NCBI GenBank assembly: GCA_024636215.1
Contig: JAGXHL010000024.1
Location: forward strand, 1 to 27,777
Direction: 5' to 3'
From: Deltaproteobacteria bacterium
GTDB taxonomy: Bacteria > Desulfobacterota > Desulfuromonadia > Desulfuromonadales > BM103
DNA length: 27,777 nucleotides
Both the position numbers and the translations under genes were made by a program. The notes beneath the pieces are model-generated. The model was not told the DNA's origin. It ran no database searches and was given only the letters and a program-made list of their open reading frames with translations. This document shows positions 2,877 through 27,777 of this stretch, piece by piece (position 1 is the first letter of the stretch; the number at the start of each line of letters is the position of its first letter).

Positions 2877-2881
2877 AGTCG

Positions 2882-3640: not shown

Positions 3641-3662
3641 AGTTATGATGACGTCGCAAAAC

Positions 3663-3743
3663 GTCGTCATACCCGCGAAGGCGGGTATCCAGAAGAGCCG
3701 TACCGACTCAAAAACACTGGATTCCCGTTTTCACGGGAATGAC
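3663..3743. repeat. REP/MITE-like double-hairpin repeat
   Basis: Two hairpins face each other: ATACCCGC-gaag-GCGGGTAT and ATTCCCGT-tttc-ACGGGAAT, bounded by GTCAT on the left and ATGAC on the right. The right half matches the hairpins at 145-169 and 389-413, so this is another member of the same repeat family. It fills the 144-base gap between the SEC-C gene and hsdS and ends 41 bases before the hsdS start. It could act as a transcriptional boundary, an mRNA-stability element or a target for insertion. Confidence 0.75.
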
Positions 3744-3784
3744 TGTTGCGAGTCATTTAGGTCTTTTTGTGAGAGAGTCTGGTT

Positions 3785-5359: not shown

Positions 5360-5387
5360 ATTATTTCATTTTTCAGGAGGAATACCC

Positions 5388-9791: not shown

Positions 9792-10013
9792 ATGTCTACA
9801 GTCAGTGTACGACTTGACAAAGACTTAATTGAGAAAGCCACCATTATGGCAAAAGCATTAAACCGTACAACGCCAAAGCAAATTGAGCACTGGGCTAAAA
9901 TCGGTGAAATGATGGAAGATAACCCAGACCTGCCATATGAGTTCGTTAGACAGGCCATCATTGCAAAAGCCGAAAAAGAAGCCGGTAAGCTCGAGGAATA
10001 CAACTTTGGCTAA
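9792..10013 (+). CDS. ParD-like antitoxin
   Basis: A 73-residue protein of the ParD-like antitoxin type: an N-terminal ribbon strand TVSVRLDKDL for DNA binding, a helix and the conserved block KQIEHWAKIG, then a charged C-terminal helix (KAEKEAGKLEEYNFG) that would wrap the toxin. ATG 9792 is set by AGGAGG at 9781-9786; the same frame is open further upstream but has no such site. The toxin gene overlaps by 8 bases. The antitoxin neutralises the toxin and represses the operon through the palindromes upstream. Confidence 0.8.
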   Translation: MSTVSVRLDKDLIEKATIMAKALNRTTPKQIEHWAKIGEMMEDNPDLPYEFVRQAIIAKAEKEAGKLEEYNFG

Positions 10014-10296
10014 AATTACCCAGGTCCTTCAAACACCAACCTTCAAAAAAGCGGTCAAGAAGCTCCACCAGAACCAAAAGAAGGATCTGGACAAGGCTGT
10101 TAAGGAGCTTATTGAAGATCCTCTTTTGGGTGAACAGAAAAAAGGGGATCTGTCATTTCTACGCGTTTACAAATTTAAAATGCATAAACAGCTCACCCTT
10201 CTCGGTTACAGTTACCAAGACGGAAAAGTCACCCTTGAGTTAATGGCTCTTGGTTCTCATGAAAATTTTTACCGAGATATCAAGGGCGTTTACTGA
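10006..10296 (+). CDS. RelE/ParE-superfamily toxin
   Basis: A 96-residue basic protein of the RelE/ParE superfamily: two N-terminal helices (residues about 8-45, Lys-rich), then strands with the RVYKFKMHKQLTLLGYSY and LELMALGSHENFYRDIK patterns typical of RelE-like mRNA interferases or ParE-like gyrase poisons. The start is taken as TTG 10006, because GAGGA at 9993-9997 precedes it by 8 bases, it overlaps the antitoxin stop, and the resulting length fits the family; the next ATG would remove more than half the domain. Which target it attacks cannot be decided from sequence. The pair looks intact. Confidence 0.8.
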   Translation: MAKITQVLQTPTFKKAVKKLHQNQKKDLDKAVKELIEDPLLGEQKKGDLSFLRVYKFKMHKQLTLLGYSYQDGKVTLELMALGSHENFYRDIKGVY

Positions 10297-10440: not shown

Positions 10441-10648
10441 TTGTCCCCATCAGACCCTGTAGACCCTTTCCCTCCGCAGCCCCTTGTTGGTCTGCCGATT
10501 CACTTCTGCACAAGCTTAGTCGTGTTCTCCTCATGGCACCGAGGCCTCTGGCTGACAAGCACAGGCTTTGACCGCTGTCGGCAAACAGGCTAAACTCGGT
10601 CGTGTATAAAAACTACTCACAATTTATGTCCAGCCTTTCGGAGTGTGT

Positions 10649-13450
10649 ATGAATGTCTCGGCACGTGTCGCAGAGTCTTTGCAGAAGATCAGCAGTCATG
10701 GCAAGGAAAACCTGGCTGATATTCTTCATGAAATTGGCGAAGCCGTCCCATTGATTACTGGACAGTCACGCTTTCGGCTCTACCTGGAAGACCTGACCGG
10801 TGGCATTTTGAGTTGTGTCCTGGCAACCGGCCGGACCCGGCAATTGGCCCGCGATCATGTCTTCTCTCTCACCGATGAAAACTATCTGGTTTCCAGAGTC
10901 TATATCGAGCAGCAGGTCGCTGAGTTTGCGGATCGCAAGCTTCTGCCTCCCCTGGCGCAGCAGCTTGCCGAAGACTTTGGTCTTATGGCCTCGACCCAGT
11001 TGCCCCTGGTGCATAAGGGGCGCTCGATTGGTGTGGTCTGTGTTGACAGTCCCCGGCCCGGTCGTTTGCTGGATGAAGTGGGCCGTCAGAACCTCGGTGA
11101 TTTCCTTGCAGAGGTGACGCCCGTCCTCGATCAGGCCCGCAAGTATCATCAGCAGATTATCGTGGCACGCCGGATCGATGGTTCAAAAAAGAAAGCCGCG
11201 GCCCGAACTATGGTGCGTTCGGCCGTACGCCTGATCAAAAAGCTCTCTCTGGCCTCGGTGCTGGTGCCATCCCGGATTGGTTCTGAAGACGATGGCCGAG
11301 GTCTTCAGGTCCTTGCTTCTTACGCCCGGGAAAAAGAAATCCAGCGTCTCTACGAGGATGAAAAACTGATCGACTTGAGTTCCGGCAAGTCATTGCTCTC
11401 CCAGTACATTAACGAAGAGGGTGTGATCACCGATGAAACCTTGTTACGGCCGCTCTATATCCCGAGTCTCAAGGCCCAGTCTCTGCAAAAAAGCTACCTG
11501 ACAGAGAAAATCGGCCTGACCTCTCTGTATGTCGTGCCCCGCTACGACCGGCGCAGTCGGCGCATTCGCTGCCTGGTCAATTACTTCACTCGCGAAGCTT
11601 ACCGTTTCAGTGATTTTGAGCGCGGCTTGTTGGAAGCACACGCCGAAATGGCCGAACGGGTCATCCAGGAAATCGGTGCTGAACACATGGAGATCCAGGT
11701 TCTTTCGGAAATCAACGACCTGCTGCAGGAGCATTTCGAAGGCTCGCAGCCCTTCCTGAACCGGGTCCTTGCCAAGGCAACCGAGCTGATCGGTGCCGAT
11801 ACCGGCAGTATCGCACTGGTCCAGGAACGTGATAGCCATGACTGGCTTATTGTTGAAGAGGAAGATGGTACTCTGGTGGGTGCCAAAAGTAAGGAATGGT
11901 TGAAAAAGAATATCCCTCTGATGCCGATCGGAGGGATCGAGCTGCCCCGTGGAGAGCGTAGCCTGACCGGCTATGTCGCGTCGACCAGACAGCCACTGAT
12001 TGTAGATGACTCATTTCTGGCGATGGTCGGAGACGGTTTCTACCGCCAGGTCACCCAGGAGATCCGCAGTGAGATCGCCGTGCCGGTCACCGTGGAAGAA
12101 AAAGTCCTCGCTGTGGTTTGTTTGAGCAGCCTGGCGTCGCACTACTTTACCGATGAACATCAGCGCATTCTGCAGATCATTGTGCAAATGATTGCCCGTC
12201 ATCTGGCTGGTCTGCTGCAGATTGAACGCCTGACATCGGAAGTCCATAGGCTACAGTCAGATGTGACCTATCGTGATCCGAAAATTTCCTCGTATCGGCT
12301 CGGCAACATTATTGGCAATTCAAGCAAAGCCGGAGATGTCATCTCGACCATAGAGACGATTACCCCGCCGCTCTATCGGCGTATCCTCCTGTGGCAAAAG
12401 GCCGATTTACGCGAAGCGGTGCTGGGGTTGCCTACCGTACTGATTACCGGAGATACCGGCAGCGGCAAGGAGTTTCTCTTCAACAACCTCTACTCCCGTC
12501 TCAACGAGATGCACCGCGCCGGCCCAGGCTCCGCCAAAGAGTTGCCGGTCACCAAAACCAACATTGCAGCCTACAGCGGCGAGCTGACCTATTCGGAGCT
12601 CTTCGGTCACAAGCGGGGCGCTTTTACCGGTGCCCACGCTGATCGTCACGGCATTATCGAAGAAGCCAGCGGTGGCGTGGTGTTCCTTGATGAAATCGGT
12701 GACGCTGATCCGAAAACCCAGGTGCAGTTGTTGCGTTTCCTGGATAATGGCGGCTTCGTCCGCCTCGGTGACAACCAGACCCGCTTCGCCCGGGTGTTGC
12801 TGGTCGCCGCAACCAACCAGGATCTGCCGCGCCTGATTGCGCAGGGACGTTTCCGTGCCGATCTCTATCATCGCCTGTCTGAATTGACCATTGCGGTGCC
12901 GTCATTGAACCAGCGCCGTGAGGACATCCCTGATCTGGCCGTGCACTTCCTCGGCCAACTCTACCGTATCTACCGCCTCGCTGACGAACCGGTCGATCAG
13001 GTGCCAACGATCAGCGCAGAGGCTCAAAGCCTTCTGAGCCGTCATGATTACACCGGCAATATCAGGGAGTTGCGGTCGATTCTTCTGCGTGCCCTGTTGT
13101 TTCGACAGGGACCGATTATTACCGGAACAGACCTGCAAAAAGCTCTGGCTTCAGGGCCTCAGCCGCTTGCTGGCGAAGCTGCCGACCAGGATCCGGTTCG
13201 TGGCATCCAGAACTCTATGCGTGAGGAGCTTGGAGACTTCTGGAGCCTGGTGCACAGGCCTTTTATTGATAATCAGCTGACCCGGGATACGGTCTGTGCG
13301 TTGATTGAAGCGACGCGCCGTGACGGTGCGCGTAATATGCCTGACCTCGCCGTTGCGCTCAGAGCCTGCGATCCACACAGCCAGGCCGCCGATGAACAGC
13401 GCAGGTTTTACAAGTTTAAAAATTTCCTTTACAAGACCGTCAGAATTTAA
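10649..13450 (+). CDS. GAF-domain sigma-54-dependent transcriptional activator
   Basis: A 933-residue bacterial enhancer-binding protein. The first about 540 residues contain two or three GAF-like sensory modules (about 15-170, 190-345 and 355-525), suited to binding a small ligand or cofactor. The AAA+ sigma-54-interaction domain follows (about 565-820), with Walker A GDTGSGKE at 601-608, GAFTGA at 657-662, the loop that contacts sigma-54, and Walker B VVFLDE ending at D681-E682. The last about 110 residues lack an obvious Fis-type HTH and instead carry a pattern FW.LV..PFI..QLTR.TV, seen at the end of some deltaproteobacterial activators. ATG 10649 has GGAG five bases upstream; a GTG at 10643 would lie inside that site. 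It is monocistronic and about 290 bases before the kinase gene. Its target is unknown. Confidence 0.9.
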   Translation: MNVSARVAESLQKISSHGKENLADILHEIGEAVPLITGQSRFRLYLEDLTGGILSCVLATGRTRQLARDHVFSLTDENYLVSRVYIEQQVAEFADRKLLPPLAQQLAEDFGLMASTQLPLVHKGRSIGVVCVDSPRPGRLLDEVGRQNLGDFLAEVTPVLDQARKYHQQIIVARRIDGSKKKAAARTMVRSAVRLIKKLSLASVLVPSRIGSEDDGRGLQVLASYAREKEIQRLYEDEKLIDLSSGKSLLSQYINEEGVITDETLLRPLYIPSLKAQSLQKSYLTEKIGLTSLYVVPRYDRRSRRIRCLVNYFTREAYRFSDFERGLLEAHAEMAERVIQEIGAEHMEIQVLSEINDLLQEHFEGSQPFLNRVLAKATELIGADTGSIALVQERDSHDWLIVEEEDGTLVGAKSKEWLKKNIPLMPIGGIELPRGERSLTGYVASTRQPLIVDDSFLAMVGDGFYRQVTQEIRSEIAVPVTVEEKVLAVVCLSSLASHYFTDEHQRILQIIVQMIARHLAGLLQIERLTSEVHRLQSDVTYRDPKISSYRLGNIIGNSSKAGDVISTIETITPPLYRRILLWQKADLREAVLGLPTVLITGDTGSGKEFLFNNLYSRLNEMHRAGPGSAKELPVTKTNIAAYSGELTYSELFGHKRGAFTGAHADRHGIIEEASGGVVFLDEIGDADPKTQVQLLRFLDNGGFVRLGDNQTRFARVLLVAATNQDLPRLIAQGRFRADLYHRLSELTIAVPSLNQRREDIPDLAVHFLGQLYRIYRLADEPVDQVPTISAEAQSLLSRHDYTGNIRELRSILLRALLFRQGPIITGTDLQKALASGPQPLAGEAADQDPVRGIQNSMREELGDFWSLVHRPFIDNQLTRDTVCALIEATRRDGARNMPDLAVALRACDPHSQAADEQRRFYKFKNFLYKTVRI

Positions 13451-13737: not shown

Positions 13738-15366
13738 ATGCTCAAGCGTTTCAGCAACAGTCTGATCAGCAAGTATATCCTCAGAACCGGTATCGTACTG
13801 CTGGTCACGATCTCGCTCTTTGCTTTTTTCAATATCAGCACCCTCAAGGAGATCTTCCTGCAGGACGCCAAAGATGACATTGAAACGGTCAGTGAGATCA
13901 TTCTGCATACGACGCACTTTCAAATGCTCAAGGACAACCGCCCGCAAGTATACGAAATGATCAAGGAAGTCTGCTCGCATGAGAAAATTGACCGTATACG
14001 ACTCTTCAGTACCGACGGCCTTGTCCACTTCTCCACCTGCGAAGAGGAAATAGGCAAAAGGCTCGAAGAGATTAATTCTCCCTGCCAGGAGTGTAACAGC
14101 AAGGTGTTTCTACCTTCGAGTCATCCCCTTGGTGATAGTCGCCGAATCTTTCATAACGCCCAAGGGCAGGAAATCTTGAGCGTTACGACGGAAATCCGCA
14201 ACCAGCCGAGTTGTTCCACGGCGGCCTGCCATGTTCATCCACCCGACGTCAAGGTCCTCGGTTTCCTTGAGGTGCAGGGGTCCCTGGTGAAGATCGGCGT
14301 CCAGGCCAGCTCTTATCGCAATAGCATTGTGACCTTCGGCGTAACCTTGTTGCTGTTGGTTATTATCTGTCTGAGCTGGATGACCCAGAGCCTGGTTATT
14401 CATCCGGTCCATGACCTGCTGCTGCACGCTCATAAGGTCTCGAACATGGAGCTCGATAGTCGACTGCAGCTGAAATCAAACGATGAAATCGGCGAACTCT
14501 CGGAAGCCTTCAACGATATGACCCTGAAGCTGAAACAAACCCGTGACGAATATCAGGAACTGACAGAAACCCTGGAGGCCAAGGTTATCGAGAGAACGGA
14601 ACAGATCGCAAACGTCAGCGATCAATTGGTGCGCTCGGAAAAGCTTGCCTCTCTCGGTCAGCTGGTGGCCGGTATTGCCCACGAGATCAACAATCCCCTG
14701 GCTGGAATTCTGATGTTCGCCAATATGTTTGCGAATGATAAACAGCTCAACGCAATGCAACGTGAGGATGCCCTGACGATTGTCCACGAGACGAACCGAT
14801 GTGCCGATATTGTTAAGCGTCTGCTCGATTTTTCCCGCACTTCGATTCCCGACAAGCGACTCAGGTCTCTCTCCGAGATCATGGAAAGCACGCTGGCCCT
14901 GGTGAGCCATCATGCCAGCGTTAATGACGTGGAAATTGTGCGGCATTACGGGGTTAATCTGCCGGAAATAGAAGTTGATCCGACACAGATGGAGCAGGTT
15001 TTTATCAACCTGCTGGTGAATGCCTGTCATGCCATGCCTCTTGGGGGACGCATGACGATTATCATGAGTGCGGATTTGCGGCGCGATCGTCTGGTGACAA
15101 CCATAGAAGATACCGGGCAGGGGATCTCGGAAGAGCATATTGGCCGAATCTTCGACCCGTTTTTTACAACCAAGAACCAGGAACTTAATGGCATTGCCGG
15201 GACGGGCTTGGGGCTGTCCGTTTCTTACGGGATCATCGAAAACCATGGTGGACAGATCCTGGTGCAGAGTTCCCTAGGGCACGGCACGGTTTTCACCGTT
15301 GAACTGCCGATCTCCTCGCTGCAACGCAGCGAAGCAGGTCCGTACATTGCTGAAAAGAGTGCCTGA
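13738..15366 (+). CDS. Sensor histidine kinase with haem-c-motif periplasmic domain
   Basis: A 542-residue membrane kinase. Order: TM1 (about 17-38); a periplasmic sensor domain (39-196); TM2 (197-216); HAMP (217-270); coiled coil; HisKA with phospho-acceptor H315 in GIAHEINNPL; HATPase_c with N-box N424/N428, EDTGQGI from E457 and GTGLGLS from G488. The sensor carries CSTAACH at 159-165, a CX4CH c-type haem motif, and CQECN at 116-120, which matches a CXXCH motif except that the axial His is replaced by Asn. It may therefore bind one covalent haem and act as a redox or gas/ligand sensor. The same two-motif domain occurs in the protein at 21379-22206. The response regulator gene begins 72 bases downstream and is the obvious partner. 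The start ATG follows AGGAGCGGG. Confidence 0.9.
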   Translation: MLKRFSNSLISKYILRTGIVLLVTISLFAFFNISTLKEIFLQDAKDDIETVSEIILHTTHFQMLKDNRPQVYEMIKEVCSHEKIDRIRLFSTDGLVHFSTCEEEIGKRLEEINSPCQECNSKVFLPSSHPLGDSRRIFHNAQGQEILSVTTEIRNQPSCSTAACHVHPPDVKVLGFLEVQGSLVKIGVQASSYRNSIVTFGVTLLLLVIICLSWMTQSLVIHPVHDLLLHAHKVSNMELDSRLQLKSNDEIGELSEAFNDMTLKLKQTRDEYQELTETLEAKVIERTEQIANVSDQLVRSEKLASLGQLVAGIAHEINNPLAGILMFANMFANDKQLNAMQREDALTIVHETNRCADIVKRLLDFSRTSIPDKRLRSLSEIMESTLALVSHHASVNDVEIVRHYGVNLPEIEVDPTQMEQVFINLLVNACHAMPLGGRMTIIMSADLRRDRLVTTIEDTGQGISEEHIGRIFDPFFTTKNQELNGIAGTGLGLSVSYGIIENHGGQILVQSSLGHGTVFTVELPISSLQRSEAGPYIAEKSA

Positions 15367-15438
15367 ACTGCAGTCCTGGTCTCCCGTTTGCGGTAACCAA
15401 CGCATTGGGTCATGATTTCCAACCATCACGAGGGCTTT

Positions 15439-16860
15439 ATGAACAAGGCAATTGAACGGATTCTGGTGGCTGATGATGATGCGGTGATCCGGGAAGGTCT
15501 GCGCCGGATTCTAAGCGGCGAAGGTTACGAGGTTGAAGCGGTCAGCAACGGTAGCGCTGCTCTGAAGCGTTTGGATCAGGAAAGTTTCAAGCTGTTGATC
15601 ACAGATTTGAAGATGCCTGGGATGAGTGGGCTGGAAGTGTTGCAGGCGATCAGAATTTGTCAACCGGAGCTGCCCGTAGTCCTGATTACCGGCTATGCGG
15701 CCATCGATAATGCCGTAGAGGCCATGAAGAACGGAGCGACCGACTACCTGTCCAAGCCTTTCGGTAACGACGAATTGATCAGCAAGGTCAAAAATGCCAT
15801 ACAATCGAGGGCTGTGCTCATCGATGACATCTGCCTGTGGCGGGAAATGAATGAGACTCACGGCTTTGATCAACTGCTTGGCGACAGTCGAGAAATGAAA
15901 CGGCTGTACCAGCGCATCATGCAGGTTGCTCCCACAGACAGCACGGTGATGATCAGCGGTGAAAGTGGCACGGGCAAGGAGCTGGTTGCACGGGCTATCC
16001 ATACCCACAGTTCGCGGCGGTCACAACCTTTTGTGGCGATTGATTGTACCGCTCTGGCTGAAACTCTTCTGGAAAGTGAACTTTTCGGCCACGTCAAAGG
16101 ATCCTTTACAGGTGCCAGCCAGACCAAGCGTGGGCTCTTTGAGGTTGCCGAAGGCGGCACTTTACTACTCGATGAAGTTGGCAATATCAGTTTGTCGACC
16201 CAGGCCAAATTACTGCGTGTCCTGCAGGAGCGGGTGGTCACACCGATCGGCGGCACCACGCCGATCAAAATCGATATACGTCTGGTTGCAGCAACCAACG
16301 CAAACCTACGGGAGATGGTCGCTGCGGGACGCTTCCGTGATGATCTGTTTTTCCGTCTCAATATCATCCCGATCGATCTTCCTCCTTTGCGCGAGCGCAA
16401 GGGTGACCTGATGCTTCTGGCGAGCCAGTTTCTCAAGCGGTTTGCAGAGGAAAACGGCAAGGAAATCAGAGGCTTCAGTCCGGATGCGATTGAGCAGCTT
16501 GAGAATTACCGGTTTCCCGGCAATGTCCGTGAACTGGAAAACCTGATCGAACGTGCCGTTGTCCTGTCGCAGTCTGATCTATTACAGCGGCAGGACCTGG
16601 AACTGCCTGGCGACAATGGCATATCTACGGCTATCAATGATAATGTTGTTCCCCTTGACGCCAACGAGCTGAAAGCACGCAAGCAACAACTCCGGGAAGA
16701 AGCCGTGGTTCCATTGGAACGTGCCTTCTTGCTCAGCGCCCTTGATCGCAACGATTGGAATATTACCCGTGCGGCTCAGGAGGTCGGTATGCAAAGACCG
16801 AACTTTCAGGCCATGCTGAAAAAACAGGGCATCAGTGTCCGTATGCGGATCGTTGAGTAA
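15439..16860 (+). CDS. NtrC-family sigma-54 response regulator
   Basis: A 473-residue regulator with a receiver domain (about 5-120; phospho-acceptor D56 in LLITDLKMPG), an AAA+ domain (about 145-375) with Walker A GESGTGKE at 174-181, the sigma-54 loop as GSFTGA at 221-226 (Ser for the usual Ala, a tolerated variant), and a C-terminal Fis-type HTH (about 435-468, NWNITRAAQEVGMQRPNFQA with D before N). ATG 15439 is chosen over the in-frame ATG 15412, because GAGGG precedes it and the receiver then begins at the normal place. It is the likely partner of the kinase just upstream, and a -24/-12 promoter lies 315 bases downstream. Confidence 0.93.
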   Translation: MNKAIERILVADDDAVIREGLRRILSGEGYEVEAVSNGSAALKRLDQESFKLLITDLKMPGMSGLEVLQAIRICQPELPVVLITGYAAIDNAVEAMKNGATDYLSKPFGNDELISKVKNAIQSRAVLIDDICLWREMNETHGFDQLLGDSREMKRLYQRIMQVAPTDSTVMISGESGTGKELVARAIHTHSSRRSQPFVAIDCTALAETLLESELFGHVKGSFTGASQTKRGLFEVAEGGTLLLDEVGNISLSTQAKLLRVLQERVVTPIGGTTPIKIDIRLVAATNANLREMVAAGRFRDDLFFRLNIIPIDLPPLRERKGDLMLLASQFLKRFAEENGKEIRGFSPDAIEQLENYRFPGNVRELENLIERAVVLSQSDLLQRQDLELPGDNGISTAINDNVVPLDANELKARKQQLREEAVVPLERAFLLSALDRNDWNITRAAQEVGMQRPNFQAMLKKQGISVRMRIVE

Positions 16861-17174
16861 CTCTGATTGTCCTCTCGCTTCAGGAACCATCAAACCTTTT
16901 AACCCTTCTCCACGTCTTTCTTGTCTTGGAACTGGATATATAAAAAACATCCCGCTGTATATTTCTCTTATACGCCAGAGCCTTCCTTTCCAATCCCTTG
17001 TCATCTAAGTAGTTACAGGATTTCATCCCTGTCGAATGTAGCTCGAGGTGATTCTGTACGTATATTTTTTATATACGATCGACTGTCCCTCTGCGCAGAT
17101 TTCTTATCTTTTCATACATGTAAAACCTTTTAAAAACAGTATCTTATAATTATTATTAGATTTTATTTAATAAG
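16861..17174. promoter_or_regulatory. AT-rich upstream control region of the respiratory cluster
   Basis: No gene is seen. A perfect inverted repeat CGTATAT-TTTTT-ATATACG lies at 17059-17077, about 100 bases before the -24 element, the usual distance for an enhancer-binding-protein site. A related CTGTATAT occurs near 16955, recalling CTGTACGTATAT at 17054-17065. These are candidate binding sites for the NtrC-type regulator. ACAGG-N8-CCTGT at about 17016-17033 is another small palindrome. No convincing terminator follows the regulator gene. Confidence 0.45.
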
Positions 17175-17190
17175 TGGTACGGGCGATGCA
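17175..17190 (+). promoter_or_regulatory. Sigma-54 (-24/-12) promoter
   Basis: TGGTACGGGCGATGCA matches the consensus TGGCACG-N4-TTGCW with the correct GG-to-GC spacing; the deviations are C to T in the -24 box and T to A in the -12 box. The first gene of the cluster starts 57 bases downstream. Two sigma-54 activator genes lie directly upstream, which makes the call more likely. Confidence 0.7.
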
Positions 17191-17246
17191 ATAGTCCATA
17201 GTCAGGAACGGATATCAACAAACAGAGCAATCGCAAGGAGGCCGTT

Positions 17247-17471
17247 ATGAAAACGATGCAGATGTTGATTTCGATGGTGGCTGGCAGCGCTTCTGCTGCT
17301 TATGCAGCAGTGGGCACACATAACGAGGGAGCAGGGATTTTGACCTACTTCTTCATCGGCTTTTTCGCTTTGATTATTGTCTCGCAGTTGGTGCCGGCAA
17401 TGATTCTTTTCTTCAGTCTGGTTAAGGGGATCTTCTCCCGCCAGGAAAAGACCCGGGCAAAAGTCGATTAG
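17247..17471 (+). CDS. Small membrane protein (paralogue of 17966-18205)
   Basis: A 74-residue protein with an N-terminal signal-like segment (about 1-21, ending SAAYAA) and one clear transmembrane helix (about 30-60), then a short basic tail. The core GILTYFFIGFFALIIVSQLV aligns with GILVGVFLAFCALIVLVQLM of the second small protein of the cluster, and both continue into a KG motif. RBS AAGGAGG is strong. It is the first gene after the sigma-54 promoter. No known function; likely an accessory or assembly subunit of the membrane complex encoded downstream. Confidence 0.75.
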   Translation: MKTMQMLISMVAGSASAAYAAVGTHNEGAGILTYFFIGFFALIIVSQLVPAMILFFSLVKGIFSRQEKTRAKVD

Positions 17472-17525
17472 CAGGGAGCAGCCCTTTTGCATGGGCCAGC
17501 TTGGCCTTTGGCAGGAGAAGAAACC

Positions 17526-17936
17526 ATGATGAACATGCCAGGACTACTCATCGCAGACGAAGACGTCTTCAGCAGGAAGCGTATGGCGGACTTGTTCATT
17601 AACGCCGGCTACCAGGTCACGGTCACCAACACGGCAGCCGGGGTTCTCTACGGAATCCTCAAAAAGACCGCCCAGGTTGTTCTGATCAGCACCCGGTTTG
17701 ATGAACTGCTGGCGACAGAATTGATTCCAATTCTGAAAAAGTGCAATCGCAACCTGACAATTATTCTGGTGGCCAGCGAATTGCCGCTGTCCCTGATCCG
17801 CAAGGCGCGCAGCGAAGGGATTTTTTATCACGCCCTCAAACCGACTCGTCCCGGTGATGAAGACGAGTTACGGGAGGCAGTCAAGTGTGCCTTTGAAAAA
17901 GTGGCCCATAGCCCTGAAGGTGAACGCTTGCAATGA
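17526..17936 (+). CDS. Pseudo-receiver (REC-like) protein lacking the phospho-acceptor Asp
   Basis: A 136-residue single-domain protein with the REC fold order: strand 1 with acidic residues (GLLIADEDVFSRKRM, D11-E12-D13), strand 3 VVLIS, strand 4 TIILVAS, and strand 5 HALKP with the conserved Lys. At the end of strand 3, where the phospho-acceptor Asp should be, there is Ser (S55). It is therefore predicted not to be phosphorylated in the normal way and may act as a constitutive or ligand-gated adaptor. ATG 17526 is chosen because AGGAGAAG precedes it; the open frame from 17487 lacks a site. It sits between two paralogous small membrane protein genes in the sigma-54 cluster; its stop overlaps a possible ATG at 17933. 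Confidence 0.7.
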   Translation: MMNMPGLLIADEDVFSRKRMADLFINAGYQVTVTNTAAGVLYGILKKTAQVVLISTRFDELLATELIPILKKCNRNLTIILVASELPLSLIRKARSEGIFYHALKPTRPGDEDELREAVKCAFEKVAHSPEGERLQ

Positions 17937-17965
17937 GCAAACAACTCAACGGAACGGAGGAGAAC

Positions 17966-18205
17966 ATGAAAACTTTAAAAAGTACAGGAATGGGATTTTT
18001 GATGTTGCTGCTGGCCAGCCCGGCGCTTGCCGTAGATACCAGTCAAACCTACTCCAGCGGGATTCTGGTTGGTGTCTTTCTGGCATTCTGCGCACTGATT
18101 GTGCTTGTGCAGTTGATGCCGACAATCATGCTTCTGGTCGGCTTCATCAAAGGTCTGATCAAAGGCACAGATAAGAAGACCGCTCGCCAGGGCAACAAAG
18201 GCTAA
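17966..18205 (+). CDS. Small membrane protein (paralogue of 17247-17471)
   Basis: A 79-residue protein with a signal peptide ending SPALA (about 1-22), one transmembrane helix (about 32-58) and a Lys-rich tail. It matches the 74-residue protein at 17247 in the pattern GIL...F..F.ALI...QL.P...L....KG. The start is set at ATG 17966, because GGAGGAG precedes it by five bases and the signal peptide then begins normally; ATG 17933 in the same frame overlaps the previous stop and would add 11 residues. Function unknown. Confidence 0.7.
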   Translation: MKTLKSTGMGFLMLLLASPALAVDTSQTYSSGILVGVFLAFCALIVLVQLMPTIMLLVGFIKGLIKGTDKKTARQGNKG

Positions 18206-18246
18206 CCCGGTCAGATTCAAACCCGAGCGCATACAAGGAGAAGGCT

Positions 18247-18417
18247 ATGATCAGCCAGATACTCGACAACATAGTTGAAGTGCACAAAGTTTACACACTG
18301 GTGGATTTCTACCAGTACATCAAGGGCATTGAATATCTCATCTGTGTTGCCTTCTTTATCGGTTTCCCAATGTTCTACAAGTACCTGAATGAGAAGCCCA
18401 AAGAGTTTGGCAAATGA
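18247..18417 (+). CDS. 56-residue single-helix membrane protein
   Basis: Begins MISQILDNIVEVHKVYTLVD, continues into a hydrophobic segment EYLICVAFFIGFPMFYKYL (about 29-47) and ends in a Lys/Glu-rich tail. AAGGAGAAGG precedes the ATG, and it lies in line with its neighbours, 41 bases after one and 38 before the next, so I regard it as a real gene. It resembles the tiny membrane subunits found in Hmc/Cbc-type quinone-cytochrome complexes; that comparison is by context only. Confidence 0.7.
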   Translation: MISQILDNIVEVHKVYTLVDFYQYIKGIEYLICVAFFIGFPMFYKYLNEKPKEFGK

Positions 18418-18455
18418 GCCTGCCGTCAGGCACTCAAGGAAAAGGAGAGAGAATC

Positions 18456-18965
18456 ATGAGCGCTAAGCAGATTTTGATAACCTTGATGACGGTTTTGGCT
18501 GGTATGACGGCAAGCTCTTTGGCACTTGCTGCTGAAATGCCGGAGCAGGTGTCCATCGACTCTATGGTCGTTTTGTTTGAGGGTGTTGAGTTCGATCACG
18601 CCATGCATACCGAACTGGGCGAGGATTGCTCCGCCTGTCATCATCACACAACCGGGACCGGAACCACTGACGAGCGTTGTATCCGTTGTCATGCAGACAG
18701 CGATGAAGTTGCAAACGTGAGTTGCCGTGGCTGTCATCTCGTCAGCCCGTTTTCCGCAGAGAATATCAACAAGGAAGCTCTTGACCGTTATCAGTTCCAT
18801 ATTGATACCCCCGGATTAAAAGCGGCATATCACTGGAATTGTCTTGGCTGTCATGAAGAGATGGGTGGTCCGATCGATTGCCAGGATTGCCATACACGGA
18901 CCCCCCAGGGTGACGCCTTCTATCACAAGGACGCAGCTGCCGCAACGGGCAAGAGCGGGCACTGA
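18456..18965 (+). CDS. Pentahaem c-type cytochrome (cytochrome c3/c7-like)
   Basis: A 169-residue exported protein with a signal peptide (about 1-26, ...ALAA) and five CXXCH haem-attachment motifs: CSACH 58-62, CIRCH 75-79, CRGCH 90-94, CLGCH 129-133 and CQDCH 142-146. The sixth-ligand histidines probably include H48, H51, H63, H64, H115 and H126. It is a periplasmic electron carrier. The next genes encode a HybA-like FeS protein and an NrfD-type membrane protein, so it probably exchanges electrons with that quinone-reactive module. The start is ATG 18456 with AAAGGAGAGAG; the open frame extends to 18414 but lacks a site there. Confidence 0.92.
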   Translation: MSAKQILITLMTVLAGMTASSLALAAEMPEQVSIDSMVVLFEGVEFDHAMHTELGEDCSACHHHTTGTGTTDERCIRCHADSDEVANVSCRGCHLVSPFSAENINKEALDRYQFHIDTPGLKAAYHWNCLGCHEEMGGPIDCQDCHTRTPQGDAFYHKDAAAATGKSGH

Positions 18966-19026
18966 CGATGGCTGGAGCTGAGCTGCTAATTTTCGAATCA
19001 GGATTTTCACGAGAAGGAGAGTCGTT

Positions 19027-19980
19027 ATGAGTGGAATCAGTCGACGGAGATTTCTTGCTGCAAGCGTGGCAGGATGCGCCGCCACAACCTTGGCCGGACC
19101 GAAGAAGGCTCTGGCAGCCGGATCCTTTACCGGCTACCCGGATGGCATGGGGGTTCTGGTGGACTTGAGCCGTTGCATCGGTTGCCGTAGTTGTGAGGCG
19201 GCCTGCAACAAAGAGCAGAACTTGCCTGCTCCCGACCGGCCCTTTGATGACCCGTCGGTTTTTGATGAAACCTTCCATGGCGGCAAGCAGAAGCGCAGGC
19301 CTGATGAGAACGCCTATACCGTGGTCAACCGCTACAACCCTGAGGAGAGTGATCAACCTGTCTACCGCAAGGTGCAGTGTAACCATTGCAACGAGCCAGC
19401 CTGTTTAAGCTCCTGCTTTGTCAACGCCTACACCAAGACCAAGGAAGGTGCGGTGGTCTACAATGACAAAGTTTGTGTCGGTTGTCGTAACTGCATGGTC
19501 GCCTGTCCCTTCAATATTCCGGGCTACAGTTACTCCAGTGCCTTCGATCCGGTGGTTAAAAAGTGCATCTTCTGCCACGAAACCCGGTTGAAGAATGGTT
19601 TGCCTCCGGCATGCGTCGATGTTTGTCCCCAGGAAGCTCTGACCTTCGGCAAGCGTAAGGAGTTGATCAAGATCGCTCACCAACGTATCCAGACCCATCC
19701 TGGCCGTTATGTAAACCACCTTTACGGTGAAAACGAGTTGGGAGGCACCAGCTGGATGTACCTGTCTCCCGTCTCCTTTGACGAAGTTGGCTTCGACCCC
19801 AACCCGGGCAACGAACCGATCATCAATAATGTCAAAGATTTCCTCGGGACCGTACCGATGGTTTTGGCGATCTGGCCGGCAATGTTTACCGGTTTCCATC
19901 TGCTGGCAAAGAAGAGAGAGCATGCTGAGCAGGATCAAGACACCGAGCGGCAGCATGGTGAGGAAGGAGGCGAACAATGA
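19027..19980 (+). CDS. Tat-exported four-cluster ferredoxin-like subunit (HybA/HmcB/NrfC type)
   Basis: A 317-residue FeS subunit. A twin-arginine signal SRRRFLAAS is at residues 5-13. Sixteen cysteines in four groups (50/53/56/60, 118/121/126/130, 150/153/156/160, 180/183/196/200) should hold four [4Fe-4S] clusters. A C-terminal hydrophobic helix (about 276-294) followed by a charged tail anchors it in the membrane with the clusters in the periplasm, as in HybA. It would wire the NrfD-type quinone site to the cytochrome. GAAGGAGA precedes the ATG; the stop overlaps the next start (ATGA). Confidence 0.93.
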   Translation: MSGISRRRFLAASVAGCAATTLAGPKKALAAGSFTGYPDGMGVLVDLSRCIGCRSCEAACNKEQNLPAPDRPFDDPSVFDETFHGGKQKRRPDENAYTVVNRYNPEESDQPVYRKVQCNHCNEPACLSSCFVNAYTKTKEGAVVYNDKVCVGCRNCMVACPFNIPGYSYSSAFDPVVKKCIFCHETRLKNGLPPACVDVCPQEALTFGKRKELIKIAHQRIQTHPGRYVNHLYGENELGGTSWMYLSPVSFDEVGFDPNPGNEPIINNVKDFLGTVPMVLAIWPAMFTGFHLLAKKREHAEQDQDTERQHGEEGGEQ

Positions 19981-21317
19981 AAAGCCTGATTGGGTGGGGC
20001 GTGAAACCCGTTGATTCCCACATTGATGAAAAAACCGACCAGAAATGGTCCTTGTCCCGTAAATTAATGCTTGGCCTGACCCCGGGTCAATATCTTGGCC
20101 AGGCTTTACGCAATCCTTTCAACTGGATTCTGGGGATTATTTTTGCCATTGGCCTGCCGTTGATCGCCTATCGCTTCATCTTTGGCCTCAGCGTGGTGAC
20201 CCATGCCTCCAACGATTACCCCTGGGGTCTTTTCCTTGGTTTTGGTCTCTTTGCCATGGTGCCGCTTTCAGCCTCCGGTTTCATGCTTGGCACAACGGTT
20301 GAGATCTTTGGACGTCACGATTTCGAGCCGATCGAGCGGTTGGCGCTGCTGAATGGTTTGCTTGGTTACCTGTTTGCCGTTATCTATCTGCTGGTTGACC
20401 TTGGCCAGCCCTGGCGTCTGCCTTACCCGATGGTGGTTTCCTTCGGCCCGGCGGCGGTGCTCTTTTTGGTGGCCTGGCACGTGGCGACCTACCTTTCCGT
20501 ACAGGTAGCCGAAGTTTCGGTGTCTTTCTTCGAATGGATCGGCTGGTTGGGCGGCAAACGCTTCATCCGGCGAATTGCCATCGGTCTGACCGTCGCCGGC
20601 ATCATCCTTTCAACCCTGCACCAAGGTGCGCTGGGGGCACTCTTCAACTACGCGCCCGGCAAAGTACACCCGCTCTGGTATTCGGCGTCATTCCAGTGGA
20701 TTCACTTCTTCTGTTCATCGATCCCTGCGGGACTCTGCATGGTGATCGCTGTCAGCACTGTGGTCAAGAAGACCATGGCCTGGCGCTGTGATGATAACTT
20801 CAAGGACAATCTGGATCACTGCACTCTCGGGCTGGCCAAAGGTGCCAGCTTGGCCTTGATCACCTACCTGGTGATCAAACTGATCGGTGTAGCGCACGAT
20901 AACGAATGGGCCTATCTCGCAACCGGTTGGGGTGCCTGGTTCCTGTTCGAGATGGCCGTGGGCGTTATTCTACCGATTATCCTGTTAGGCTATGCTGTTC
21001 ACAATCGGGCTGTTACCCTGGCCCGGGTCGGGGCCTTCGTGACCATCTTCGGCATCGTCCTGAACCGGCTGAATACGGCATTGATCGCCTTTAACTGGCA
21101 GCTCTATCAGGAAGTGCCGCATATCTTTGAGGTGATTATCGCGGTGACGATCTTCGCGATCTACGTGGTGGTTTATCGCTTCATCCTCTACAGACTGCCG
21201 ATCCTCTATGCCTGGAAAGAGCAGCCGCAAGAGGCCCTGGCCGCTGAAGCGGCAAGGCCGGCGCCGATAAAAACGTCAACCTCGCCCATCGAAGCCATGT
21301 ACCGCAAGATGGATTAA
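19977..21317 (+). CDS. NrfD/HybB-family quinone-reactive membrane subunit
   Basis: A 446-residue integral membrane protein with about ten predicted helices, of the NrfD/PsrC/HybB family. These proteins have no haem and bind menaquinone/menaquinol near the periplasmic side. ATG 19977 overlaps the FeS gene stop (ATGA) and has AAGGAGG upstream, so the two are made together. With the pentahaem cytochrome and the FeS subunit it forms a complex of the Hmc/Qrc/Cbc kind, moving electrons between the menaquinone pool and periplasmic c-type cytochromes. The direction of flow cannot be told from sequence. Confidence 0.92.
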   Translation: MKSLIGWGVKPVDSHIDEKTDQKWSLSRKLMLGLTPGQYLGQALRNPFNWILGIIFAIGLPLIAYRFIFGLSVVTHASNDYPWGLFLGFGLFAMVPLSASGFMLGTTVEIFGRHDFEPIERLALLNGLLGYLFAVIYLLVDLGQPWRLPYPMVVSFGPAAVLFLVAWHVATYLSVQVAEVSVSFFEWIGWLGGKRFIRRIAIGLTVAGIILSTLHQGALGALFNYAPGKVHPLWYSASFQWIHFFCSSIPAGLCMVIAVSTVVKKTMAWRCDDNFKDNLDHCTLGLAKGASLALITYLVIKLIGVAHDNEWAYLATGWGAWFLFEMAVGVILPIILLGYAVHNRAVTLARVGAFVTIFGIVLNRLNTALIAFNWQLYQEVPHIFEVIIAVTIFAIYVVVYRFILYRLPILYAWKEQPQEALAAEAARPAPIKTSTSPIEAMYRKMD

Positions 21318-21323
21318 ACGATG

Positions 21324-21351
21324 GCCACGGGGCTTGTGAAAGCCCCGTGGC
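21324..21351 (+). other. Strong intercistronic hairpin
   Basis: GCCACGGGGCTT-GTGA-AAGCCCCGTGGC is a perfect 12-bp stem with a GNRA-type loop, 7 bases after the NrfD gene stop. No T-run follows, so it is more likely an RNA-stability or partial-termination element than a full terminator. It may set a lower level for the two genes that follow. Confidence 0.75.
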
Positions 21352-21378
21352 TACATGCTCAGGCCAAGGAGAATCGCC

Positions 21379-22206
21379 ATGTTGAGCAGCATAAACAGTC
21401 GCGCTATCGTTCCGGTCGCCTGTGCCGTCACCGGTTTTGTCATCGCCTGTTGTGTGCTTCTGTTTACCTTTATCAAGGCGGACCTGATCAAAGGCGAAAT
21501 TCAACATGCGGTCGATTTGGCTGATACTGTGATCAAATCTACACGCTATGCGATGCTGCATGACGACCGGGAAACCCTGAGCAATATCATCAGCAGCATC
21601 GGCGACCAGCAGCAGGTTGAACATGTCAGGATCTTCAATAAGAAGGGCTTGATCATGTTTTCCCGAGACCAGGATGAACTGAATAATTTTATCGACAAGT
21701 CGGCCGCCGGCTGCAATGAATGTCACGCCGAAGAGAAGCCGAAAAGCAGTTTGGGGACCATGGCCCAGGCCCGCCAGTTTACCGACAAAAAGGGCAATGA
21801 CGTCCTTGCTATTACGGCTCCGATCTACAATGAAACAGAATGTTCCACCGCTGCCTGTCATTTTCATTCACAGGAGCAGAGCCTGCTGGGGACCCTCGAT
21901 ATCGGCGTTTCTCAAGACCCTCTCAAACAGACTCTTGGACAATTGCAAAACCGCATGATCGTGTTTAGTGGTATGATCCTGATTCTTACCGTGGGTGCCG
22001 TATCCGCGCTCTTGTACCGACAGGTTTTTTTGCCGATCAAGAAACTTGCTGACTTTACCGAAACACCGGTCAATGGTAGGGTGATTGAAGATATCCCTGA
22101 GGTAAGAGGAGACATTGCCCGTCTGGCCAAATCCTTCCAGGAGATGACTAAGCGGGTTCATGAACTCGAGGCTCAAGTGTCGCCCAAGCGAGAGGACGTC
22201 TCGTAA
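21379..22206 (+). CDS. Membrane haem-sensor protein with HAMP domain but no kinase
   Basis: A 275-residue protein: TM1 (about 9-32), a periplasmic domain to about residue 190, TM2 (193-212), then a HAMP-like segment and a short charged end. The sensor domain has CNECH at 112-116 and CSTAACH at 155-161, a CXXCH and a CX4CH haem motif. This is the arrangement of the kinase at 13738, including identical CSTAACH residues and similar flanking text, but here the first motif is complete. There is no HisKA, ATPase, GGDEF or MCP signalling domain, so it either transmits through another protein or is an electron-carrying haem protein. ATG 21379 follows AAGGAGA; the ATG 21355 upstream lacks a site. Confidence 0.8.
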   Translation: MLSSINSRAIVPVACAVTGFVIACCVLLFTFIKADLIKGEIQHAVDLADTVIKSTRYAMLHDDRETLSNIISSIGDQQQVEHVRIFNKKGLIMFSRDQDELNNFIDKSAAGCNECHAEEKPKSSLGTMAQARQFTDKKGNDVLAITAPIYNETECSTAACHFHSQEQSLLGTLDIGVSQDPLKQTLGQLQNRMIVFSGMILILTVGAVSALLYRQVFLPIKKLADFTETPVNGRVIEDIPEVRGDIARLAKSFQEMTKRVHELEAQVSPKREDVS

Positions 22207-22271: not shown

Positions 22272-22793
22272 ATGGGCCAGGTGCAGTCAAAGCCTGAAGG
22301 ACAGCCCTTTCCGGGACGCCAGGACCTGCGGCTCAGGATAGAAGCGCGGATCCGCAAGCTTGAAAGGGCTTCCGGCAACGGGCTCTGGTCGATGGTCTGT
22401 TTCCTGCTGGTCAGCTTTGCTGCGTTTCATGGATTTTCTTTCCTGCCCGAACTCAGCGCTGAGATGCGCAGCTTGCTTGGAGCACCGCCGTCTGCGGAAA
22501 TGATCAGCCTGGCCCTGGTTGTTTACGCTTTTTCCGGTATTGTTCGTACCCTTGCCCGCATGAGCCGCAACATCAAGCCGTTTCTCGGCCTGATGCACGC
22601 CGCATTTTTTACCGCCTTCTATCTTTTCTATCATCTGTCAGGAGCCTTGCAGGACAACTTCTGGGCGGTTTTCTTTGCCGGGATCAGCGTTATGGGGCTG
22701 GAGAACTATTATCTCTGGACGCACAGCAGCGCCGCCCTGCACAAGGAACGGGAATTGCTGAAGAGTCTGCCGGAGAGGCAAGTGGAAGACTAG
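22272..22793 (+). CDS. Membrane protein of unknown function, last gene of the respiratory cluster
   Basis: A 173-residue protein with a basic cytoplasmic N-terminus (about 1-37), about four hydrophobic helices (about 38-58, 74-92, 100-122, 127-148) and a charged tail. AGAAGGAG precedes the ATG. I do not recognise a family. It follows the haem sensor by 65 bases and faces the minus-strand operon convergently; the 42-base gap shows no T-run hairpin. A role in the quinone-cytochrome complex is inferred only from position. Confidence 0.7.
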   Translation: MGQVQSKPEGQPFPGRQDLRLRIEARIRKLERASGNGLWSMVCFLLVSFAAFHGFSFLPELSAEMRSLLGAPPSAEMISLALVVYAFSGIVRTLARMSRNIKPFLGLMHAAFFTAFYLFYHLSGALQDNFWAVFFAGISVMGLENYYLWTHSSAALHKERELLKSLPERQVED

Positions 22794-26040: not shown

Positions 26041-26556
26041 ATGTACACCAAAGCGTTCAAAGCCTTGATGGTTCGGAAGATGGCTGATCCAAATAGGCTC
26101 AGCCCTATGGCTATTGCCAAGGACATTGGCGTTTCGCAAAGCACATTGTACCGTTGGGCAAGCGAAACTGATACCGTGGACGTCGCAGAGCTACCTGATC
26201 CACCCTCATTCTCTATATCAATGAAAAGGATGGCCACCGTGAAGCGACCACAAGATTGGAGTCCCGAAGAGAAGCTGGCAGCAGTTCTGGAGGCGACGTC
26301 GCTTTCAGAGGAAGATCTTGGCCCGTTCTTACGCAGTCGTGGACTGCATGAGGCCCATTTGCAGCAATGGCACGAGCAGATGCTGGTCGGGCTTGAGCCC
26401 GCCCCAACCACACGTGTTGTAAGAAAACGCATCCAGGAACTGGAGAAAGAACTTAATCGCAAGGACAAGGCTTTGGCTGAAGCTGCGGCCTTGCTGGTTC
26501 TCAAAAAAAAAGCCCAGGACATTTGGGGGGACGAGGACGACGACACGACCCCATAG
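26041..26556 (+). CDS. IS3-family transposase OrfA
   Basis: A 171-residue OrfA with an N-terminal HTH_Tnp domain (about 2-45, SPMAIAKDIGVSQSTLYRW), a second helical region (about 65-125) and a leucine-zipper-like C-terminus (RIQELEKELNRKDKALAEAA). OrfA binds the element ends and by itself tends to repress transposition. ATG 26041 has AGGAGG six bases upstream. A run of nine A (26503-26511) near the end lets ribosomes shift -1 into orfB. Confidence 0.88.
   Translation: MYTKAFKALMVRKMADPNRLSPMAIAKDIGVSQSTLYRWASETDTVDVAELPDPPSFSISMKRMATVKRPQDWSPEEKLAAVLEATSLSEEDLGPFLRSRGLHEAHLQQWHEQMLVGLEPAPTTRVVRKRIQELEKELNRKDKALAEAAALLVLKKKAQDIWGDEDDDTTP
26503..26511 (+). promoter_or_regulatory. Programmed -1 frameshift site (A9) between orfA and orfB
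   Basis: In the orfA frame the run is read AAA AAA AAA GCC. The orfB frame is -1 relative to orfA and is open through the run, so slippage here yields an OrfAB fusion, the active transposase in IS3 elements. Confidence 0.7.
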
Positions 26557-27335
26557 CCAGGGAGAAGGTCCTTGTCCTGATCGAGCAGGCGGTGCACCGG
26601 GGCGCCAGACTTGATCCCGCCGCACGAATGCTCGGGTTAACGGCTCGAACCGTCCAGCGTTGGCGCAACCAGAATGGCTGCTACGACAGGCGCAGCGGTC
26701 CAAAGACCGCGCCGGCGAACAAGCTGTCCCCTGTCGAACGACAGCAGGTCCTGTCAGTGTCCAATTCCCCCGAGTATCGAGACCTGTCGCCTCGGCAGAT
26801 CGTCCCCCGCCTGGCCGATGAAGGACAGTATCTCGCTTCGGAATCGACCTTCTACCGAATCTTGCGAGCCGAGGGGCAATTAGCGCATCGGGAACACTGC
26901 CGCCCAGTCAAACATCGTCGACCAAAGGAGAAAAAGGCAACCGGCCCATACCAGGTGTGGTCCTGGGACATTACCTATCTCAGATCGACAGTAAGGGGCC
27001 AGTTCTACTACCTGTACCTGATTCTCGATGTCTGGAGCCGCAAGATCATGGCGGCAACTGTCTTCTCCGTGGAGAGAGACCAGAACAGTTCAATGTTGTT
27101 CATGGAGGCGGTTTGCCATCATGACATAGACCCTGAAGTGTTGATTCTGCATTCTGACAATGGCAGCCCAATGAAGGGTTCGACTATGCTGGCAACGCTT
27201 CAGCACTTGGGCGTGATGCCTTCCTTTAGTCGCCCCAGTGTCAGTAATGATAACCCTTACTCGGAGTCGTTGTTTCGCACATTGAAGTACCGACCGGAGT
27301 ATCCCTCGCACCCTTTTGCAACGGACACCTGCTGA
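26523..27335 (+). pseudogene. IS3-family transposase OrfB, C-terminally truncated
   Basis: The open frame encodes about 270 residues with a helical N-terminus (HTH-like, about 25-50), then an rve/DDE integrase core: D in WSWDITYL, D in LHSDNG, E in YSESLF, all three catalytic acids present. Normal OrfB runs some 50-80 residues further through the R.H..L....P..Y region. Here homology stops at about residue 266, and the last few codons (TDTC) come from the pfkB gene read backwards. It is expressed as an OrfAB fusion through the upstream A9 site; loss of the end probably inactivates it. Confidence 0.8.
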
Positions 27336-27777
27336 GCCTGCCCATCGAGCAACCCGGGCATAGAAATCGTCCGGGACACCGGGCGGCAGGCTGCCGCTGG
27401 CAACCAGATATTGCGGCAGCGGTTCGAGCCCGTCAAGCAGGGCAAGGCAGGCCTGCCATTCCCGTTCCGTCAGTTCCGGTCCCGGCAGGACGAAGCGATA
27501 CTCCTGATCTGTTTCCTCCTCGAAAACGGTAAAGTTTTCCCTGCTGATACCATCAATCTCTTGCACCCGGCACGGCACATTCTCTGCCGCAAGCAGATCC
27601 TGCAGAAATACTCCTGAAGGGCCCCCCGCCGGCAAAAGGGCAAGCGCCTGCCCACCCAGAGAGCTGATCGCTCGTGCGACATTGATACCGCCACCTCCCG
27701 GATCGCGGCGGGCTATACGTCCACGCAGTTTGTCAGCCGGTTGCAGCTGCCGGGCATTGATGTACAGATCAATGGAC
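27318..27777 (-). pseudogene. pfkB: 6-phosphofructokinase II / PfkB-family sugar kinase, 3' half deleted
   Basis: Reading on the minus strand from the window edge, about 153 codons match the E. coli Pfk-2 type: the substrate-binding GGGGINVARAI block, LPAGGPSG, YRFVLPGPELTE, and VASGSLPPGVP. Homology ends at SAGVRC, where Pfk-2 would continue into a strand toward the nucleotide site. The C-terminal half, including the GAGD catalytic-base motif, is replaced by the truncated IS3 element. The 5' end lies beyond the window. A broken copy implies that glycolytic phosphofructokinase activity, if needed, comes from elsewhere. Confidence 0.85.

Follow-up and report, generated by a model that had tools for sequence, protein, structure and literature searches.

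A putative two-haem form of periplasmic haem-c Cache sensors in a histidine kinase and a CbcD-like protein at a predicted respiratory operon

The window analysed here, a stretch of 27,777 nt of contig JAGXHL010000024.1 (GCA_024636215.1, Deltaproteobacteria bacterium, BM103) on its forward strand, contains at 13,738–22,206 two forward-strand genes whose products share a periplasmic domain with two haem-c-type motifs. The first encodes a sensor histidine kinase, P0001 (13738–15366), with the order transmembrane (TM) helix, haem-c Cache sensor, TM helix, HAMP, HisKA and HATPase_c; the second encodes P0002 (21379–22206), an output-less CbcD-like protein of 275 residues with a TM helix, a two-haem Cache sensor, a second TM helix and a HAMP-like end. 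The comparisons described below place the shared domain among the periplasmic haem-c sCache/'PAS' sensors of the GSU0582/GSU0935 type, as a putative two-haem variant. In the kinase, the sensor domain (approximately residues 36–193; 13843–14316) contains Met63 (13924–13926), a first motif CQECN (residues 116–120; 14083–14097) that appears to be a decayed second-haem site, and CSTAACH (residues 159–165; 14212–14232). P0002 contains the equivalent Met59 (21553–21555), an intact CNECH (residues 112–116; 21712–21726) and CSTAACH (residues 155–161; 21841–21861). An earlier, sequence-only reading had reported CXXC(H/N) and CX4CH motifs in both proteins at a similar spacing; translation confirmed the coordinates and the motifs, with exactly 43 residues between the first cysteines in each. 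The common TM–sensor–TM layout also held, but the HAMP that it had assigned to both did so only in part, since residues 215–264 of P0002 (22021–22170) conserve the hallmark positions of HAMP and are not called by Pfam.

The kinase scores above the Pfam cut-offs for HAMP, HisKA and HATPase_c, and nothing of note in Pfam matches its periplasmic part. P0002 weakly matches sCache_4 (24.2 bits, cut-off 22.1) and, under the cut-off, Mcp40H-20_sensor (23.4 bits, cut-off 27). A search of the PDB with the P0002 sequence alone returned unrelated chains, designed coiled coils among them. A profile built from 15 diverse family domains (A2) gave GSU0935 (3b42, E 3.8e-5) and GSU0582 (3b47, E 0.0057) as its two top PDB matches, followed by multihaem nitrite reductases at E 0.03 or weaker, and in its alignments the CX4CH stretch falls on the single CXXCH of both GSU proteins. 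Compared with 12 one-haem sensors, the family profile aligned over 165 columns (probability 99.9%, E 2.5e-32) with the first motif in a gap; these 12 were taken from 13 PF21563 loci of related genomes, the remaining one (L178) being an output-less member of the family itself. Thirteen of the 15 diverse members match PF21563 at E ≤ 1 (best 1.8e-7), whereas P0002 stays below the gathering threshold and P0001 gives no match. At the PF21563-type haem column a C-Xn-CH motif (n = 2–5) is present in 137 of 137 family domains. Because the second motif lies on the CXXCH of the one-haem sensors and the first lies in a gap, the second would be the older haem site, to which the first was added. CX4CH is thus, as judged from the alignments, the same kind of site as the CXXCH of the one-haem relatives, with an elastic spacing of two to five residues. 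Membership of PF11845 (Tll0287-like) was considered and rejected: neither P0001 nor P0002 matches it and only two of the 15 diverse members do (best E 0.092). The profile comparison with 14 of 15 PF11845 loci (L163 was left out) is partial, covering 66 columns around the same haem site (probability 36.9%, E 0.00036).

AlphaFold models of P0002 (predicted local distance difference test, pLDDT, 74.4; predicted template modelling score, pTM, 0.53) and of the kinase sensor (pLDDT 76.5, pTM 0.62) both show the helix–strand order of a single Cache domain; residues 115–131 of the kinase, which include the decayed motif, have a pLDDT below 50. A methionine is invariant in all 137 domains and in all 103 full domains of the kinase set described below. 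Counted from His144 along the HMMER alignment, it corresponds to Met60 of GSU0935, which binds the reduced haem and detaches on oxidation (PMC8396549). The one-haem sensors have a methionine at this column in ten of 12 cases, as read from the alignment by eye. Met63 of the kinase and Met59 of P0002 are therefore candidate distal haem ligands.

Conservation was assessed in a kinase set (109 homology matches including the query) and in an output-less set (P0002 with 120 matches listed of 1207). CX4CH is retained in 108 of the 109 kinases, the exception (P0105) being without that segment, and CX4CH and CXXCH are each retained in 121 of 121 output-less proteins. From the first alignment of these 230 proteins six were left out as too short or motif-less (N-terminal truncation and, for P0105, lack of the motif). 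In a broader sample of 137 domains, chosen from the loci of this study after two of 139 with fewer than 150 matched residues had been dropped, the second motif is CX4CH in 128, CX3CH in four, CX5CH in three and CX2CH in two, ending in CH throughout; the first is CXXCH in 126, CXXC without histidine in seven and absent in four. The motif conservation in both proteins is, at this depth of sampling, not due to chance.

The kinases differ in the first site. A tree of the 137 domains was calculated by a quick method, with the first CXXC-like match in the expected stretch replaced by X so that the motif would not drive the topology; 51 of its 134 inner branches are open and L111 sits on a long branch. 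The ten kinases whose first motif is not intact, the window kinase included, form one clade (Shimodaira–Hasegawa-like approximate likelihood ratio test, SH-aLRT, 98), and the nearest outgroups, kinases L014 and L013, keep CXXCH. Together these support a diheme sensor that became monohaem once, as the sequence-only reading had suggested among other possibilities, and CQECN is, on this tree, a derived loss of CXXCH in the lineage of the window kinase. The close-relative kinases vary at this site: among the 103 of 109 with a full domain, 16 have CXXCH, 59 have CXXC ending in N, D, E or other residues instead of His, and 28 were scored as lacking CXXC (one of these, P0071, actually shows CEDCE). 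In 24 of the 103 the first-motif segment was scored as having no cysteine and CX4CH is nevertheless retained.

The output-less proteins other than L070 form a single clade of 47 rows (SH-aLRT 100) that is not sister to the clade of the window kinase; L070 was counted as short, but its layout suggests a frameshifted kinase and it is excluded from the output-less gene counts. A recent duplication within the operon is ruled out by these separate clades as the origin of P0002, which is, on the tree, a member of an old clade of its own and no recent decoy copy of the kinase. The two-motif domain forms a real and large family: in the phylum of locus L001, 112 of 395 genomes match the domain at E 1e-20 or better, mostly with kinase-length frames among the matches listed, and in the phylum of L023 ten of 140 genomes have it, the frames listed all having at least 510 residues. 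Output-less forms were found among the matches listed in at least 23 genomes (G187 would be the 24th). Each of the 23 has two or more matches, with a kinase-length match within ∼8 kb in 20, on another contig in two and at an unlisted position in one, so that the two forms do often co-occur; most kinase genomes show no output-less form among the matches listed.

Within the output-less proteins, the first TM helix is the most conserved part (mean top-residue frequency 0.96 in the 121 close homologues), and many of the HAMP hallmark columns reach 0.9 or more in the same set. In alignment A3, with 39 rows, 12 give a PF00672 match at E ≤ 1, seven of these rows being kinase sensors cut before the HAMP region. 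A TGF...C signature accompanies both of the core types described below in most rows and is missing in stand-alone paralogues. We read the conservation of the first TM helix and this signature as possible contact with the product of the following gene, a CbcE-like membrane protein (22272–22793 in the window, with no Pfam or NCBIfam match) that is found after 42 of the 47 output-less genes. Four CbcD-like paralogues (L020, L021, L135 and L136) stand alone with no CbcE-like neighbour, and three of them stop shortly past the second TM helix and have no HAMP end.

The genes between the pair are also on the forward strand. The kinase adjoins an NtrC-type sigma-54 response regulator (15412–16860; Pfam Response_reg, Sigma54_activat and HTH_8), its presumed partner. 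A −24/−12-like site, TGGTACGGGCGATGCA (17175–17190), located by pattern scan, lies between the kinase/NtrC pair and an operon that begins with a small hydrophobic protein of 74 residues (17247–17471; no Pfam match), a receiver-like protein (17526–17936; Response_reg 28.6 bits, cut-off 30.2) and two further small hydrophobic proteins of 79 residues (17966–18205; no Pfam match of note) and 56 residues (18247–18417; no Pfam match). These are followed by a periplasmic multihaem cytochrome of the class III, HmcA- and TmcA-like kind with five CXXCH motifs counted by eye (18456–18965), an HmcB-like 4Fe–4S protein with a signal resembling that for twin-arginine translocation (19027–19980), an HmcC-like NrfD-type membrane protein (19977–21317), P0002 and the CbcE-like protein. 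The Fe–S and NrfD proteins score below the NCBIfam equivalog cut-offs (404.7 bits against 420 and 358 bits against 550, respectively). The receiver-like protein, which is conserved with the respiratory operon, apparently lacks the phosphoacceptor Asp (...VVLISTRFDE..., by eye). The 17247–17471 and 17966–18205 proteins have a similar layout, and the latter also matches a further site upstream in several loci at 34–43%. Immediately 5′ of the kinase, a GAF–GAF–sigma-54 AAA protein (10643–13450, forward strand; Pfam scan) may join the kinase circuit, because its homologues hold the same place in L001, L004, L013 and L014.

Wherever loci are long enough, the same order recurs: kinase, NtrC-type regulator, receiver-like protein, small TM proteins, cytochrome, Fe–S protein, NrfD, CbcD-like and CbcE-like protein. 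In the Geobacter record L133 the kinase is followed by an NtrC-type regulator on the opposite strand, a small TM protein, a cytochrome with seven CXXCH, a membrane cytochrome b, a cytochrome with 12 CXXCH, and then the output-less protein followed by a membrane protein. A similar order is found in L018. CbcD is annotated as a subunit of Cbc5 with HAMP and two haems (PMC7894505). This annotation, together with gene order and haem counts in L133 and L018, identifies P0002 as CbcD-like and the product of 22272–22793 as CbcE-like; the L133 genes were equated with GSU locus tags from their order and haem counts and not from sequence identity to the named genes. Of the output-less genes, 38 have over 1300 bases of upstream sequence; the core is of the NrfD type in 24 of them and of the CbcA/CbcB type in eight, and six were scored as having neither; of these six, L019 does have NrfD and was scored core-less through frame overlap, four are the stand-alone paralogues and L016 shows no core. 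The same sensory shell is thus, by gene content, found around two unrelated cores, HmcABC-like and CbcABC. In L119, NrfD-type genes occur together with a CbcC-like cytochrome, possibly a stage between the one core type and the other. The −24/−12-like pattern TGG[CT]A[CT]N5[AT]TGC[AT], which was narrowed after a first scan, was found in the 900 bases 5′ of the first core gene detected in 16 of 29 loci (in the window at 17175), compared with 0.032 expected per 900 bases from its rate over the same loci. Joshi et al. are said to have described in 2021 the Cbc5 regulator as BccR (GSU0598), which reportedly helps to induce cbcBA at low potential.

We consider it probable that a haem redox-sensing kinase switches on the operon of a menaquinol:cytochrome c oxidoreductase and that the CbcD-like subunit relays signals or electrons. 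The CX4CH site would carry the ancestral haem, with the invariant methionine as a candidate sixth ligand that is bound when the haem is reduced and released when it is oxidized, as in GSU0935; CXXCH would carry the added second haem that the lineage of the window kinase lost once. Through its haem, the kinase would monitor the redox poise of the cytochromes in the periplasm and phosphorylate the adjacent NtrC-type regulator, which would then initiate sigma-54-dependent transcription of the HmcABC-like oxidoreductase operon near 17175. P0002 would be the CbcD-like accessory of this operon, a membrane-anchored two-haem Cache–HAMP protein that works with its CbcE-like neighbour and either relays electrons or reports the redox state within the complex.

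Several observations weigh against this redox-sensing interpretation. AlphaFold confidence is moderate for both models. Two of the 12 one-haem relatives lack the methionine at the expected column by eye (L169 has it one column later and L175 has leucine). The promoter pattern, itself narrowed after a first look, is absent from 13 of the 29 loci. The Cys pair often outlasts the His in kinases (59 of 103), which simple decay does not explain. A CbcD of G. metallireducens is listed as monohaem in PMC10470525, and signalling-linked sCache_heme proteins have been reported as nitric oxide (NO) sensors (PMC12889525).

The closest competitor, which we hold to be a serious possibility although we lean away from it, is that P0002 is purely an electron-carrying membrane subunit whose HAMP end is a relic with no signalling role. 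Its annotation as the cytochrome c subunit CbcD, its constant place beside the core, the intact haem motifs of all 121 output-less proteins and the four stand-alone paralogues, three without the HAMP end, all agree with such a carrier, but its fold is that of a sensor and the HAMP hallmark positions have been kept in many columns.

It is rather unlikely that the kinase senses NO instead of redox potential, its haem being a gas sensor like that of the HAMP-linked sCache_heme protein of Pseudomonas azotoformans. The latter binds NO tightly and forms no stable oxygen complex (PMC12889525), and GSU0582 and GSU0935 bind NO and carbon monoxide (PMC8396549). The window kinase, however, adjoins an operon of the quinol:cytochrome c oxidoreductase type, a Pfam scan of ten neighbours gave no match to a known NO-handling family, and the invariant methionine agrees with a ligand switched by redox state, even if NO is also able to displace it.

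We are similarly doubtful that P0002 uses its Cache and HAMP parts to associate with the kinase and adjusts the kinase signal as a modulator or decoy, the arrangement of receptor and partner envisaged in the sequence-only reading. The conserved HAMP hallmark positions and the further match in 23 of 23 output-less genomes, of kinase length and within ∼8 kb in 20, speak for a modulator. The rest argues otherwise: most kinase genomes show no output-less form among the matches listed, the two kinds of protein lie in separate clades, the gene sits after the core in a structural operon with a CbcE-like gene adjoining 42 of 47, and a homologue is called a Cbc5 subunit (PMC7894505). The decoy half of the proposal is unsupported, as P0002 belongs to an older, separate clade, has intact motifs and corresponds to CbcD.

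More speculatively, and with a chance that we put well below even, the kinase, the sigma-54 regulator, the Cache–HAMP protein and the CbcE-like protein might constitute a core-independent redox-sensing shell that is kept while the enzyme is swapped (HmcABC-like versus CbcABC), with the HAMP protein conveying the redox signal of its haems through the membrane and so gating the complex or the kinase directly. If true, the shell would be a haem–HAMP regulator of respiratory enzymes and not of transcription or chemotaxis.

Binding of a metal or iron–sulfur cluster by the four cysteines, or their pairing in disulfides, is very improbable: the window kinase does retain all four without the first His, and CXXC outlasts the His in 59 of 103 kinases, but the constant CH of the second motif with its elastic spacing of 2–5 at a site aligned with a proven haem-c site favours covalent haem over a metal cluster, 126 of 137 domains have a full CXXCH, and the 24 kinases with Cys-less first segments still keep CX4CH.

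The redox-sensing interpretation bears on how bacteria that respire metals and electrodes change between respiratory complexes of the inner membrane with the potential of the acceptor (PMC10082016, PMC12307469). No paper naming a protein that measures this potential was found in searches of the open-licence literature. A kinase that carries a candidate redox-active haem and lies next to the regulator and operon of such a complex, in many Desulfobacterota, is a concrete candidate for such a potential sensor, and its one-haem version in the window would make it possible to distinguish the two haems. The finding also ties CbcD, catalogued as a cytochrome subunit, to sensor domains, a connection testable in genetically tractable Geobacter.

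The remainder of the window contains genes of other kinds. A cluster at 443–7244 resembles a Type I restriction–modification system, with HsdM-like (443–1909) and HsdS-like (3785–5359) proteins, a Fic/RhuM-like frame (1884–2876), a SEC-C-ended protein (2882–3640) and a DUF262-like protein (5388–7244), all from translations read by eye. A reverse-strand pair of PIN-like and helix–turn–helix/ImmA-like proteins (7621–9167) and a small forward-strand RelE-like protein (9937–10296) resemble, from their translations, toxin–antitoxin or stress modules. An integrase-core transposase-like frame (26523–27335, forward strand) overlaps the end of a sugar-kinase-like frame (27090–27776, reverse strand); by eye, this region (26523–27776) looks like an insertion element interrupting the latter.

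Two-motif sensors have been noticed before. Two Anaeromyxobacter sensors with an additional haem motif, and likewise Gsu0591 and Gsu0599, are mentioned in PMC3831638 (citing Londer et al., 2006), and GSU0591 and GSU0599 are listed as signal transducers with two CX2–4CH motifs in PMC8396549. With these in print and CbcD annotated with HAMP and two haems, in addition to the full-length homology to haem-c sCache/PAS sensors, the suggestion of an undescribed sensor family does not stand, although in the literature covered such sensors were not characterized. A word search of PMC12889525, which describes the sCache_heme family including a HAMP-only protein with NO-sensor properties, found no occurrence of diheme, two heme, second heme, CX4CH or CXXXXCH in the text covered. 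In searches of the open-licence literature no paper joining CX4CH or CXXXXCH to a histidine kinase was found, a weak negative as wording varies, nor was a swapped-core operon or a common origin of CbcD and the kinase sensor, mostly judged from listings. The scale of the family, the homology of the sites, the single loss and the swapped core seem to be new. Judged from the sequences, the domain is a real and conserved variant, with two predicted haem sites, of an already known family of sensors, and the pair is ordinary in membership and unusual in arrangement.

Among known systems, GSU0582 and GSU0935 (Mcp40H class; 3b47 and 3b42; PF21563) share with the window family a homologous domain, the haem column, the helix–strand order and the distal-Met position. 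They differ in having one haem, CXXCH spacing and a chemotaxis output, whereas the window family has an extra CXXCH in an insertion and mostly CX4CH at the old site. The sCache_heme family (DUF3365/Tll0287, PF11845) also has a periplasmic Cache fold with covalent haem and an output-less HAMP-only member in Pseudomonas azotoformans, but matches by profile only in part and is defined by a single CXXCH (PMC12889525). The HisKA/HATPase_c kinase beside a receiver–AAA–HTH regulator, together with the −24/−12-like site, has the features of an NtrC-type sigma-54 two-component system. The operon core resembles the HmcABC/Tmc-type transmembrane redox complexes in its HmcB-like Fe–S protein, HmcC-like NrfD protein and small multihaem cytochrome, and departs from them in scores under the equivalog cut-offs and in the added CbcD- and CbcE-like partners. 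P0002 has the HAMP-type end, the two haem motifs and the adjacent CbcE-like gene of CbcD, while its core consists of cytochrome, Fe–S protein and NrfD and not of the CbcABC of Cbc5. Close counterparts of the pair are GSU0599 (a two-component protein) and GSU0591 (CbcD) of Geobacter sulfurreducens, reported as signal transducers with two haem motifs of the CX2–4CH type (PMC8396549, PMC3831638); these flank a CbcABC core, in contrast to the HmcABC-like one of the window, and in the Geobacter record L133 the kinase has the CXXCH that the window kinase has lost.

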